Positions 5,957 to 61,278 of a DNA stretch of 64,000 nucleotides are shown here, in pieces; position 1 is the first letter of the stretch; each line of letters opens with the position of its first letter. The notes below the pieces were generated by a model. That model saw nothing but the letters and a program-made list of their open reading frames with translations. It made no database searches and was not told where the DNA came from. Source of the DNA: a virus. The stretch spans positions 1-64,000 of IMG/VR virus record IMGVR_UViG_3300042010_000040; one strand, given 5' to 3'. The position numbers and the translations under genes are program-made.

Positions 5957-7819
5957 TTGAGTAACATTCGAAAAGTGATTGAACACTACACGGATTTTTC
6001 TGGAGAGAAACTCTGTTGTCCAATTCACGGAGAAAACACACCATCACTTCAGATTTATGAAGATACTAATTCATGGTATTGTTGGGGAGCGTGTGGTGAA
6101 GGTGGTGATGAAATCGCATTTGTTAAAAGTATTGATGGTGTAGACTTCCCTGAAGCTGTAAAGAAAGTCTGTGAAATTCTAAATATTACCAAAGAGGAGC
6201 TTATGGAAAGTAAAGATAAAGAAAAGGTGGTCACTAAAGTATCTTCAGAAAATGCTGAAGCTATGGATATTGAAGAAGTAAAAGAACTTATTCGTTCCAC
6301 TGGGTATGTCAGTCATGGCTACCGTGGAATTCGTGATGAGATTAACAAATTCTTTGGTCATTTGACTAAGCTTGATGAAGCCGGCAACGTACTTGCTCGA
6401 TACTACCCGGAAACTAATAACTTTGGTAAATTGACAGGTTATAAATGCCGCAATCACCCCAAGGACTTTAGTCACGGTAAGGTGGGAGCTACAGGCAATA
6501 AGAGTCAACTGAGCGGTCAAGTTAAGTTTAAATCACCTTCCAAGTATGTACTCTACGTGGGCGGTGAAGAAGATAAAGCTGCTGCATACCAGATGCTTAA
6601 GGAGAATCGAAAGGATCAGGAGTTCGATTCTATTCCTGTGGTAAGTCCAACGTCCGGTGAAGGGAGCGCAGCAAAACAAGCTGCTATGCAATATGACTGG
6701 TTCGACCAATACGACATTATTGTGATTGGGATGGATCAAGATGAGGCTGGTATTAAGGCAGCTAAAGAAATTGCAAACGTACTGCCGAAAGAAAAGATTC
6801 GAATTGCTACATGGTCGGGCAAAGATCCAAATGCTATGTTGATTGATGGCAAAGAGAAACAGTTTGTTCGTGATTTCTACAACGCTAAAGAATTCATTAG
6901 CAGCGGTATTTCCTCTTCTGGTGATGCTGAAGCTGGTTTGGCTGAGTTCCTGACAGCACCAAAGATTGGTCTGCCTCCTCAACTGAGTAAGCTTGAAGCT
7001 GCAATGCGTGGTGGTATTAAATCTACTGGTTCTGTTGTGAATATCATTGGTGACACGAGTATTGGTAAGAGCTTTTTGTCTGACACTCTGATTTACCATT
7101 GGTTGTTCAATAGTCCTCGTGTTCCAACTATTGTAAGTCTTGAACGTACAAAAGAAGAGTTGACAATTGATTTGCTGTCAATGCACCTTAAGAAAAACCT
7201 GATGTGGTTTACAGATGGTCATGATGCTGTTGATTATCTGAACCAGCCTGAAGTACAAGTATTGAAGAATAATCTTCTGTACAATGAAGCTGGTGAACCT
7301 CGATTCTTTATTATTGACGAGCGAGAAGGTGAAATTGAGCTTCTTAAGCGTCAAATGGAGAAAAGTGGTAAAGTAAATGATTCTCGCCTTATGGTGATTG
7401 ATCCACTCACTGACTTCCTCCGCTCTCTTGGTACAGAGGTTCAGGAAAACTTTATGATGTGGCAAAAGCTGCAAAAGAAGAATGGGTTTGTATTCATTAA
7501 TATTCTTCACACACGTAAGCCACCAACTGATAAAGATGGTAATGTACGTAAAGTTACGGAATATGATGCGTTAGGGTCCGGGACATTTATCCAGTCAGCA
7601 GACGTGAACATTGTGATCAATCGTGATAAGATGGCTTCAGATCCGATTGAGAAGAATACGACCTATGTTGACATGCCTAAGTGTCGTGGGGGTATCACTG
7701 GTGAGATTTGTGCGCTATACTATGACGCTGAAACTCGTCAGCAATATGATCGTGATGAATATTTTCAAACGCCAATACAGTCACCTCCCGAATACCTTTC
7801 GGAAGAGATTAGCTTTTAA
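5957..7819 (+). CDS. bifunctional DNA primase-helicase, T7 gp4-like
   Basis: 620 aa. It unwinds the fork and makes RNA primers. Domains in order: an N-terminal zinc ribbon with C21-x2-H24 and C42-x3-C46; a TOPRIM domain (VVSPTSGEGS, then IIVIGMDQDEAGIKAA at about 255-270); a RecA-like helicase with Walker A GDTSIGKS at about 367-374; a Walker B LMVIDPLTDFL; and a later FINILHTRKP motif. Length is close to T7 gp4 (566). The start is TTG at 5957 with TAGGAG upstream; no ATG fits the zinc domain. It lies directly upstream of DNA polymerase, so the two likely form the replisome core. Confidence 0.93.
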   Translation: MSNIRKVIEHYTDFSGEKLCCPIHGENTPSLQIYEDTNSWYCWGACGEGGDEIAFVKSIDGVDFPEAVKKVCEILNITKEELMESKDKEKVVTKVSSENAEAMDIEEVKELIRSTGYVSHGYRGIRDEINKFFGHLTKLDEAGNVLARYYPETNNFGKLTGYKCRNHPKDFSHGKVGATGNKSQLSGQVKFKSPSKYVLYVGGEEDKAAAYQMLKENRKDQEFDSIPVVSPTSGEGSAAKQAAMQYDWFDQYDIIVIGMDQDEAGIKAAKEIANVLPKEKIRIATWSGKDPNAMLIDGKEKQFVRDFYNAKEFISSGISSSGDAEAGLAEFLTAPKIGLPPQLSKLEAAMRGGIKSTGSVVNIIGDTSIGKSFLSDTLIYHWLFNSPRVPTIVSLERTKEELTIDLLSMHLKKNLMWFTDGHDAVDYLNQPEVQVLKNNLLYNEAGEPRFFIIDEREGEIELLKRQMEKSGKVNDSRLMVIDPLTDFLRSLGTEVQENFMMWQKLQKKNGFVFINILHTRKPPTDKDGNVRKVTEYDALGSGTFIQSADVNIVINRDKMASDPIEKNTTYVDMPKCRGGITGEICALYYDAETRQQYDRDEYFQTPIQSPPEYLSEEISF

Positions 7820-7828
7820 GGAGAAATT

Positions 7829-9946
7829 GTGAGCAACGATATTGTCTATGACATTGAGGCCGATGGGTTCGTTTTTGAGTCAACGAAAGTTTGGACAATT
7901 TGTTTGACTCATGTACAGACTAAAACTAAGCTGAAAATCAATCCCTTTAAAGATCCAAATGCTAAGGAGAAATTTCTAAAATTCATCTTCTCGTTTGGTG
8001 AATGCCCTAATATTATTGGGCACTTTATTTTGGGCTACGATAATTTCGTTGTTCAGAATCTTCTTGGGATTAATTTTACAGTTGGTAAAGACACGATTGA
8101 AGGTAAACCAGTTCAGTTTATTGATACTCTGTACCTCTCTATGTTCCTAAACCCTGATCGGGTCGGGCATAGTATCGAGGCTTTTGGTGAGGAATTAGGG
8201 CTTCCAAAAATTGATTGGCGAGCAAAGGCAGTTGAGCTAGGCCTTATTGAAAGGAATGCCCCAAACGGCGCAGAATTCCAACAATGGCACCCAGAAATGG
8301 ACGTGTATTGTGACCGAGATACAGACGTAAACGTCTTGGTTTATGAATATCTGCAAAAAGAGTGGCGACAAGTATACGGAAAAGAATTTTCTATTACTGA
8401 TGCTTATAAGTGTGGGCAGAAATCTTTCTATCTGATGTCTTGTCAAGAACTTACAGGTTTCAAGTTTGATGTTGAGGGGGGTAAGAAACTAGCAATCCGT
8501 ATTGAACAGATGATGGAAGAGATTCGTGCAGAAGTTGAACCACAACTACCTCCGCGTGCTCTGAAAAAGTCTGAAGAATCTTTTTATTCGATGCCAGCTA
8601 AGCCCTATAAAAAGGACATGACATATAGTTCAGCTTGGCTTAAGTTTGTTGAGAAACACAATGGTAAAGAACTTGAGCACAGTTTTGAAGGTGATCGTTG
8701 GGAATTCTATGGGAAGGAATACTTTGTAGAACCCGGACAGATGCTTGATATTAAGTTGCCAATGGAAATGGCTAACCAAGATCAAATGAAAGATTGGTTC
8801 TTGGAATCTGGATGGCAGCCAACACTCTGGAACTTTAAGCGAGGGCCAGACAATAAGCCAATGCGTGATCCTAAGACACGCCAATTAATCCAGACAAGTC
8901 CCAAGATTCAGGAACAGGGGAAGTTGTGTAAGAACCTTGAGAGGATGGAGGGACCGCTTGTTAAATTGGTTGTGAAGTGGCTTAGTTTGCGAAACCGTCA
9001 GTCTGTGTTGAATGGCTGGTTAACAAATGATCGTCTACAAATGGATGGGCGGATTGGTGCAGGCCGTAGTGGTATTGCTGCAACTCACCGGCAAAAGCAT
9101 AAAACTTGTGTGAACGTGCCTAAAGCATCAGAGAAGGTATTGCTTGGTAAAGAATTCCGTTCATTATGGATTTCCGATGATGGGATGTTGATTGCTGCTG
9201 GGGATGCCGCTGCGTTAGAGGGACGGGTTCAGGGACATTACTGTTTTAAATATGATGGTGGTGCAACCGCTGAAGAATTGTTAAAAGGTGATGTCCACTC
9301 TAAGAATGCTTTTGCTTTCTTTGGACATGAGAAAGACTTGCAGCAATTTGATTTCCATAGTCCAGACTTCAACAAGGAACATCCGAAATTCAAGCCGTAT
9401 CGGGACAAGAGTAAAAACGGATACTACGCCTGTATGTATGGCTGTGCTGGACCTAAGCTCGCCTCTACCTTGGGTCTTCCTGTAAAGATGGGCAATGATA
9501 AGTTAGAGGCGTTCTGGGAAGCTAACCCAGCAACGAAAGCCCTGAAAGAGAACCTAGAGAGATATTGGGAAAGTGTTGGGCGTAGTAAATATCTGCCCGC
9601 TATTGATGGTCGTATGCTTTGCACACGTAAAAAGTCCGCATTGCTGAATACAATTTTCCAAAGTTGTGGCGGTATTTCCATGGACTATGCACTTTGTTTT
9701 ATGGATGCGTGGCTTGGGGGCCTGAAGTGGAAAGATCGTAAACCCCACTACGTCTACAAAGGATTTATTGTAAAGCGTGTTGCCTATATGCACGACGAAG
9801 TAGAATTTGAGTGTGAAGAACCAATTGCAGAGGAAATTTCAAGAATGATCGAACGGGCTATTGAAAAAGCAGGTTTGTATTTAAATCTAAAAGTCCCTTT
9901 GGCGGGAGAAGGTAAGGTGGGGAAAAGCTGGTGCGAAGTTCACTAA
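7829..9946 (+). CDS. family A DNA polymerase (T7 gp5-like)
   Basis: 705 aa, the replicative polymerase with proofreading. The 3'-5' exonuclease shows Exo I at D8/E10 (YDIEAD), Exo II around IIGHFILGYDN, and Exo III YCDRD. Polymerase motif A is GDAAALEGRVQGHYC near residue 457. Motif B is KSKNGYYACMYG near 527. Motif C is YMHDEVEFE near 654. Length matches T7 gp5 (704). GTG start after AAGGAG. Motif A has AAALEGR where SQIELR is usual, but the key Asp, Glu and Arg are kept. Its last 16 bases overlap a homing endonuclease gene. Confidence 0.95.
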   Translation: MSNDIVYDIEADGFVFESTKVWTICLTHVQTKTKLKINPFKDPNAKEKFLKFIFSFGECPNIIGHFILGYDNFVVQNLLGINFTVGKDTIEGKPVQFIDTLYLSMFLNPDRVGHSIEAFGEELGLPKIDWRAKAVELGLIERNAPNGAEFQQWHPEMDVYCDRDTDVNVLVYEYLQKEWRQVYGKEFSITDAYKCGQKSFYLMSCQELTGFKFDVEGGKKLAIRIEQMMEEIRAEVEPQLPPRALKKSEESFYSMPAKPYKKDMTYSSAWLKFVEKHNGKELEHSFEGDRWEFYGKEYFVEPGQMLDIKLPMEMANQDQMKDWFLESGWQPTLWNFKRGPDNKPMRDPKTRQLIQTSPKIQEQGKLCKNLERMEGPLVKLVVKWLSLRNRQSVLNGWLTNDRLQMDGRIGAGRSGIAATHRQKHKTCVNVPKASEKVLLGKEFRSLWISDDGMLIAAGDAAALEGRVQGHYCFKYDGGATAEELLKGDVHSKNAFAFFGHEKDLQQFDFHSPDFNKEHPKFKPYRDKSKNGYYACMYGCAGPKLASTLGLPVKMGNDKLEAFWEANPATKALKENLERYWESVGRSKYLPAIDGRMLCTRKKSALLNTIFQSCGGISMDYALCFMDAWLGGLKWKDRKPHYVYKGFIVKRVAYMHDEVEFECEEPIAEEISRMIERAIEKAGLYLNLKVPLAGEGKVGKSWCEVH

Positions 9947-60030: not shown

Positions 60031-61278
60031 TCAAACAGATAACTTCTCCTCAATAGCAACACCATCTTCTTTCCAATTCAGACTGATAGGCACTAAATAA
60101 TCCACACCAAACCTTTTACGAAAGCAATCACCCATAGTTTTTGATAGTAAGTCAGCATTCTTAGTCTGCACCAAAAATGAGTCATGCACTGGCAAGCATG
60201 AGATATTCTTTTCAATCATCACCTCTAGAATATCATTAGCCAAATGACTATCAGCATTTTGTAAGATACGCCCCATGCTATCTGGGCAACAGAAGAAATC
60301 ACCAAACTGTGGGTATTTATCATAGATAAGCAACATCACAGCCTTTGCACCGCCAAGGGAATACTTCTTTTTGTCTTCATCCTTAAGCAGATTAATCTCT
60401 TTACGAATAGCACCCTCTGCATCGTCGTCGTTATAGCAGTTAAACATGATGTTAACAGCGAGCTTCACGATACGACGATCTACTGTGTTTGTTTCATCTT
60501 CAAGAATACCTGAGTAAACGTCTAGTGGAAGGTACTCGACATCAATATCCTTGAGAGCAGCAGCTACACGAAAATGTAGATTGCAGAAGTCAATCTCACA
60601 AACTTCCTGACCTTCAATCTTAATATCAAGTCGTGCATCCGTATCTCGATTCTTAATTGCCAGCACATCAGCTTTATAAAATCGACCACCGTAAGCAAAC
60701 GACTCATTGAAGATACGACAGTAGAAGTTTGTGAGAGTCTTACCACTACCATCTTCAATACGAAATGATTCATTCATATGGTTGAGCTTACGAACAACCT
60801 CTTCCATTTTCTTGATATCTTGTGTGTTACGATAAGGGATTGAATTCTTGTCTTCATCTCGCAATTCAATAACCTTCACGGTGTCTTCATATGCTTTCAT
60901 AGTTTCCTCAATCAATTCTTCCATGTGCCAGACTTCAATGAACTTCTGGGTTGGAGTGATGTAGCTAACTTCCCTCTTCTCTTTAATCTTATGTGGCTTA
61001 CCCTTAACATTAACCACATAACCTTCATGTACTAAGTATTCAATACAACGAATAACCTTACGAGAGGTAATATCTTTCTTACTACTTGTCTTTGTTCCTC
61101 CTGTGTCTCTACTATACACAAGCTTACATTGTTTCTTAAGACAAGCAATCAGATTAGTGACAACCACACCTAACGTAGTAATGTCCTTATATCCATACAC
61201 CCTAATAGCATTACTTACCTCTCTACTAACTTTAATATCATAGGTTAGTAGCTTAGTATTCAAGATTACATCTCCCAT
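60031..61278 (-). CDS. stand-alone family-A-polymerase-like palm protein
   Basis: 415 aa. The N-terminal 130 residues look like a winged-helix DNA-binding part (TSRKVIRCIEYLVHEGYVV). Then come GGRFYKADVLAI, a motif-A-like VCEIDFCNLHFRVAAAL, a motif-B-like RRIVKLAVNIMFN, a NADSHLANDILEVMI helix, and a motif-C-like LPVHDSFLV. This is the order in family A polymerases, but the protein is far smaller and has no exonuclease. I recall similar uncharacterised proteins in phages and mobile elements. Possible primer or RNA/DNA-synthesising enzyme. Confidence 0.7.
   Translation of the reverse strand: MGDVILNTKLLTYDIKVSREVSNAIRVYGYKDITTLGVVVTNLIACLKKQCKLVYSRDTGGTKTSSKKDITSRKVIRCIEYLVHEGYVVNVKGKPHKIKEKREVSYITPTQKFIEVWHMEELIEETMKAYEDTVKVIELRDEDKNSIPYRNTQDIKKMEEVVRKLNHMNESFRIEDGSGKTLTNFYCRIFNESFAYGGRFYKADVLAIKNRDTDARLDIKIEGQEVCEIDFCNLHFRVAAALKDIDVEYLPLDVYSGILEDETNTVDRRIVKLAVNIMFNCYNDDDAEGAIRKEINLLKDEDKKKYSLGGAKAVMLLIYDKYPQFGDFFCCPDSMGRILQNADSHLANDILEVMIEKNISCLPVHDSFLVQTKNADLLSKTMGDCFRKRFGVDYLVPISLNWKEDGVAIEEKLSV

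Follow-up and report, generated by a model that had tools for sequence, protein, structure and literature searches.

Pipolins are integrative elements encoding piPolB, a primer-independent PolB, and are characterized by integration at tRNA genes, att-like direct repeats, a tyrosine recombinase and variable cargo, with the polymerase as the common gene (PMC7385651). A tyrosine integrase, direct repeats and defence cargo are also found in defence islands integrated at tRNA or tmRNA genes, such as I55 (PMC12595487); the main text of that paper nowhere mentions a polymerase. Among enzymes, the relevant systems are the family A DNA polymerases (bacterial Pol I and T7 gp5; PF00476) and the single-subunit RNA polymerases (RNAPs; T7 RNAP and POLRMT; PF00940). 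A further entry, PHROG 4756 ("unknown function"), records nothing on fold, activity or a bacterial mobile-element branch. P0001, the phage protein described here, is a member of PHROG 4756 by profile, and its relatives form a family without a name that travels with mobile DNA, being present in lytic phages, small islands integrated at tRNA genes and a probable plasmid.

P0001 is encoded in a phage record (IMG/VR record IMGVR_UViG_3300042010_000040), of which the first 64,000 nucleotides, termed the window, were analysed. An earlier note had placed a stand-alone polymerase-like protein of 415 amino acids at 60031 to 61278, and this position and length were borne out by an intact reading frame on the minus strand with an ATG start and zero internal stops. 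The features of the gene are listed below.

60031 to 61278, minus strand: P0001 coding sequence, PHROG 4756 member (profile match, structure model, purifying selection)
60952 to 61182, minus strand: winged-helix-like N-terminal region, residues about 33-109, a putative DNA-binding domain (DSSP of the model: helices 33-49 and 72-84, strands 88-92 and 104-109; weak Foldseek matches)
60631 to 60717, minus strand: motif T-like block, residues 188-216, R-I/V-F-N ... G-G-R-F-Y ... R (conservation; collinear with the Pol I GRLSS...LQNIP...R)
60553 to 60609, minus strand: motif A, residues 224-242, with catalytic Asp D230 at 60589-60591 and steric-gate position H235 (conservation, model)
60439 to 60486, minus strand: motif B (O-helix-like), residues 265-280, R268-x3-K272-x7-N280 (conservation, model)
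60166 to 60264, minus strand: motif C block, residues 339-371, LQ-x2-DS ... PVHDSF, with catalytic Asp D366 at 60181-60183 (conservation, model, profile)

The PHROG 4756 profile matched residues 25-394 of P0001 (E=1.5e-52), and Pfam, NCBIfam and PDB sequence searches with the protein gave no identification. Comparison with L014 (98% identity; dN 0.012, dS 0.56, dN/dS about 0.02) and L016 (82% identity; dN 0.117, dS 1.31, dN/dS about 0.09) showed computationally that the gene is under strong purifying selection. Upstream of the gene, no iteron-like repeats or origin were detected beyond chance. Sigma-70-type promoters near the gene were not in excess relative to shuffles, and hence no promoter is claimed. 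Rfam gave no match within 52-64 kb of the window, the phage collection contained no DNA-level relative of its 58.2-64 kb segment, and no PADLOC defence model matched P0001 or five homologues at E<=0.01. Directly downstream lies an HNH endonuclease gene (PF01844; 59116-59901, minus strand), possibly a homing-type neighbour. The phage also encodes a full T7-like polymerase, as had been claimed, at 7829-9946 (PF00476, E=7e-14), adjoined by a T7-like primase-helicase at 5957-7819.

AlphaFold2 models were obtained for P0001 (pLDDT 82.5) and a bacterial homologue (pLDDT 93.8, pTM 0.88). A fold devoid of a palm domain, named in the earlier note as evidence against a polymerase, was not what was predicted: the best PDB match of the P0001 model in Foldseek was Pol I of Aquifex pyrophilus (E=9.6e-5, prob 1.0), with weaker matches to mitochondrial RNA polymerase (POLRMT) and T7 RNAP. 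For the bacterial homologue, 99 PDB matches were found at E<=0.001, and the best 50 of these 99 were all of the Pol I family. Overall TM-scores against PDB entries were low (about 0.3), indicative of a match to the superfamily rather than to a close relative. Computationally, the models show a family-A (Pol I) palm/fingers fold for P0001. The absence of an exonuclease, also stated in the note, held up, as residues 1-130 gave no Pfam exonuclease match and were modelled as a small helical/winged region. The winged-helix-like N-terminus that had been suggested was moderately supported, in that the second helix and both strands of this region were present in the model; the Foldseek matches to RTP and PadR/LmrR were weak.

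Profile comparisons gave a more distant relationship. PF00476 did not match P0001 and was not listed for any of 75 family members, and PF00940 fell below the cut-off for P0001 (E=0.11; 11.8 bits versus a cut-off of 22). Alignment of the P0001 family with bacterial PolA by hhalign was weak (P=0.043) yet collinear across all four motifs (T, A, B and C). With a T7-like RNAP profile, the probability was 45% and the motif C segment (P=2.2e-4) fitted better than it did to PolA. The family shares with the family A DNA polymerases the palm/fingers fold, the catalytic Asp pair, the R-x3-K of motif B and a collinear GR...R of motif T, but differs in the lack of an exonuclease domain and of a PF00476 match, a catalytic part of about 270 amino acids and the winged-helix-like N-terminal domain. 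With single-subunit RNAPs it shares a weaker fold match and the DS...HDSF of motif C at nearly equal spacing, whereas those enzymes have 800 or more residues compared with the 415 of P0001.

The three motifs quoted in the earlier note, CEIDFCNLHFR, RRIVKLAVNIMFN and PVHDSFLV, were located at residues 227-237, 268-280 and 363-370. Conservation was counted over 96 homologues. The residues of these motifs were near-invariant, most non-matching rows being gaps, indicating that the matches are not due to chance, and the secondary structure of the model (DSSP) agreed with the motif positions. In motif A, D230 was conserved in 95/96 homologues and ended a strand (224-230) that was followed by a helix (234-242). 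R268 and K272 of motif B (94/96 each) lay with N280 (89/96) on a single helix, 265-280, and H365 and D366 of motif C (90/96 and 91/96) occupied the turn of a hairpin formed by strands 361-364 and 367-371. Conservation extended to the motif T-like block (R188 in 93/96, G198 in 95/96, R199 in 96/96, Y201 in 94/96 and R216 in 95/96), the GGRFY motif containing R199 and the later R216 being absent from the motif list of the earlier note. Two positions departed from known polymerases, namely, the steric gate and the O-helix position, which, judged by motif spacing and general background, correspond to the E. coli Pol I residues E710 and Y766. The steric-gate column (H235) contained His in 73, Asn in 10, Gln in 7 and Glu in 1 of the homologues (His/Asn/Gln in 90/96), and the O-helix Tyr position was Asn in 89/96. 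Both family A hallmarks, a Glu at the steric gate and a Tyr/Phe in the O-helix, are thus absent, as are the Gly and the motif B Tyr of single-subunit RNAPs. From these sequences, use of ribonucleotides by the family is possible, given the missing steric-gate Glu.

The assertion of the note that similar proteins of undescribed activity exist in phages and mobile elements was likewise borne out. Matches were detected by tblastn in 206 phage records, mainly of Vibrio, Aeromonas and Rheinheimera phages and ICP1, and bacterial relatives were found in tRNA-integrated elements; no description of the family or its activity was found in open-licence papers, which cover part of the literature. Scans of IMG/VR with three phage homologues yielded nothing new. 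Sampled phages carried one to three copies, which lay among small uncharacterised genes. A 93-kb relative, G013, has a second, divergent copy, while the window phage record has one; the gene is, therefore, accessory in phages. Where G013 has this second copy (G013:11068-12264), a 413-amino-acid P-loop protein with no Pfam match is encoded in the window phage (window 313-1554, minus strand, and record 92006-92347).

Matches were carried by 22 of 289 alphaproteobacterial genomes searched (about 8%), and the host's own polA was retained in 11/12 genomes. Locus scans used a 55-amino-acid core of the Thioclava protein, as alignment A2, which leaves out two unrelated genes (L009:849-2126 and L005:13874-15127), was too divergent as a query; 140 bacterial loci were confirmed and 80 were kept. 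Most members share about 20-30% identity with P0001, and in a tree the 12 phage members fell on one side of a single branch (98/94). In the Thioclava plasmid pTElox9, the N-terminal part of a homologue (L006 9779-10786) is displaced by an IS21-family insertion.

A tyrosine recombinase was present near the family gene in 40 of 42 well-flanked bacterial loci (5 kb or more to either side) and a serine resolvase in 15 of 42, compared with a tyrosine recombinase background of 138 matches in 49.3 Mb from 11 host genomes (about 0.045 per 16 kb). Among the 59 loci with a tyrosine recombinase, 35 had a tRNA gene no more than about 120 bp from the 5′ end of the integrase. In 19 loci, which include two closely related and thus non-independent pairs (L032/L033 and L059/L061), a tRNA-end repeat of 15-73 bp recurred 6-12 kb away, and the family gene was inside the repeats in 19/19. 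These computed associations link the family to integrases and att repeats. The elements often carry defence cargo, including type I and III restriction-modification (R-M) systems, Cas9 with a repeat array, TIR and Mrr-nSTAND3, and elsewhere radical SAM enzymes. In one 6.0-kb element (L054), the family gene is joined by just two other large reading frames, an integrase and a single defence-type gene. A 12.2-kb tRNA-Leu element of a Desulfovibrio MAG (L045 3275-15470) contains a homologue, a Cas9 gene, two reading frames in the place of cas1/cas2 and a repeat array. Three loci (L018, L030 and L063, the L063 pair being on opposite strands) have two homologues each, perhaps from neighbouring or tandem elements. 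No other replication proteins were recognised among the sampled element reading frames, and no PolB was seen among the element proteins scanned. The delimited elements of 6-12 kb are like pipolins in layout (tRNA-gene integration, att-like repeats, tyrosine recombinase, variable cargo and a common polymerase gene), but are not pipolins, as their polymerase is family-A-like and not a PolB. From I55-type islands they differ in carrying a polymerase as a recurring gene.

More than two head-to-tail, near-identical copies of an 8949-bp unit were present in positions 1-20000 of L127 (G118 contig C14), which probably represents a circular plasmid that the assembler read through. The unit encodes a family homologue, RepA_C, a ParA-like ATPase, a serine resolvase and a D12 methyltransferase. 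The presence of the RepA_C initiator on this plasmid-like contig led to rejection of the idea that initiation depends everywhere on the family polymerase alone.

The setting of the relatives in phages and tRNA-integrated elements suggests that the family helps such mobile DNA to copy itself. Cargo varies between elements while the family gene stays with the integrase, intact, selected and with a polymerase fold, as expected for a backbone gene acting on the element's own DNA. As host and phage already have full polymerases, priming or initiation would be the most economical role. We give about an even chance to the reading in which P0001 is a catalytically active accessory polymerase that is carried by an element and starts or primes synthesis on that element. 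P0001 would be a stand-alone nucleotidyl-transferring polymerase that lacks an exonuclease and joins the palm and fingers of family A to a DNA-binding N-terminus of winged-helix-like form. The N-terminus would most likely bring the protein to the element's own DNA by element-specific binding, and the catalytic part would make a short nucleic acid there, either a primer or a first DNA strand. The element would thereby gain a replication start of its own beside the main replicase, here the T7-like polymerase and primase-helicase of the phage; catalysis, specific binding and priming are what we infer.

Other roles would place the same gene differently. The bacterial copies often lie beside type I/III R-M, Cas9, TIR and STAND genes, and the phage copies are accessory, variable in number and surrounded by small uncharacterised genes, as might be expected of a defence or counter-defence polymerase whose product blocks or triggers an immune response, like Abi-type reverse transcriptases, without copying the element. 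PADLOC, however, gave no match for P0001 itself, and its continued pairing with the integrase, against changing cargo, points to a backbone gene more than to a defence gene; we consider this role unlikely. A similarly low likelihood is assigned to a repair or recombination polymerase that acts when the element is excised, integrated or recombined, by filling gaps or extending 3′ ends, and has no part in starting replication. The tight linkage to tyrosine recombinases, and often to serine resolvases, favours such a role, as does a family-A fold without proofreading, known from gap-filling Pol I relatives, but no tyrosine integrase was seen beside the family gene in lytic phages or the plasmid-like contig, and complete polymerases are already available in the hosts and the window phage.

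The motif C match to the T7-like RNAP profile, the resemblance of HDSF and GR-x-Y to single-subunit RNAPs and the replacement of the Pol I steric-gate Glu would agree with a minimal relative of the T7-like enzymes that works as an RNA polymerase or RNA primase. This is improbable, as Pol I gives the strongest structure matches, the O-helix has Asn where RNAPs have Tyr, and P0001 is too short for a promoter-recognition domain like that of T7 RNAP and scores below the PF00940 cut-off. Least credible, with only a slight chance, is a catalytically dead or vestigial palm in a DNA-binding regulator: the altered steric-gate and O-helix positions and the low profile similarity to known polymerases are consistent with decay, but the catalytic Asp pair and the motif B R/K are near-invariant even though most members have low identity to P0001, and codon sites are strongly constrained.

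An extension of the priming role, which we regard as tentative and on balance doubtful, is that the small elements form a new self-synthesising class in which a family-A-like polymerase starts without a primer, perhaps with ribonucleotides, as a counterpart to the PolB of pipolins, with large lytic phages carrying their own branch of the enzyme. The family lacks a Pfam or NCBIfam model despite its presence in about 8% of the sampled alphaproteobacterial genomes and more than 200 phage records. If active, its members would be unusually small family-A-type polymerases with altered sugar-selection positions, and would provide a testable explanation of how small islands that carry defence genes but no recognised replication genes are maintained or amplified when moving. 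A common gene links these defence-carrying islands to lytic phages.
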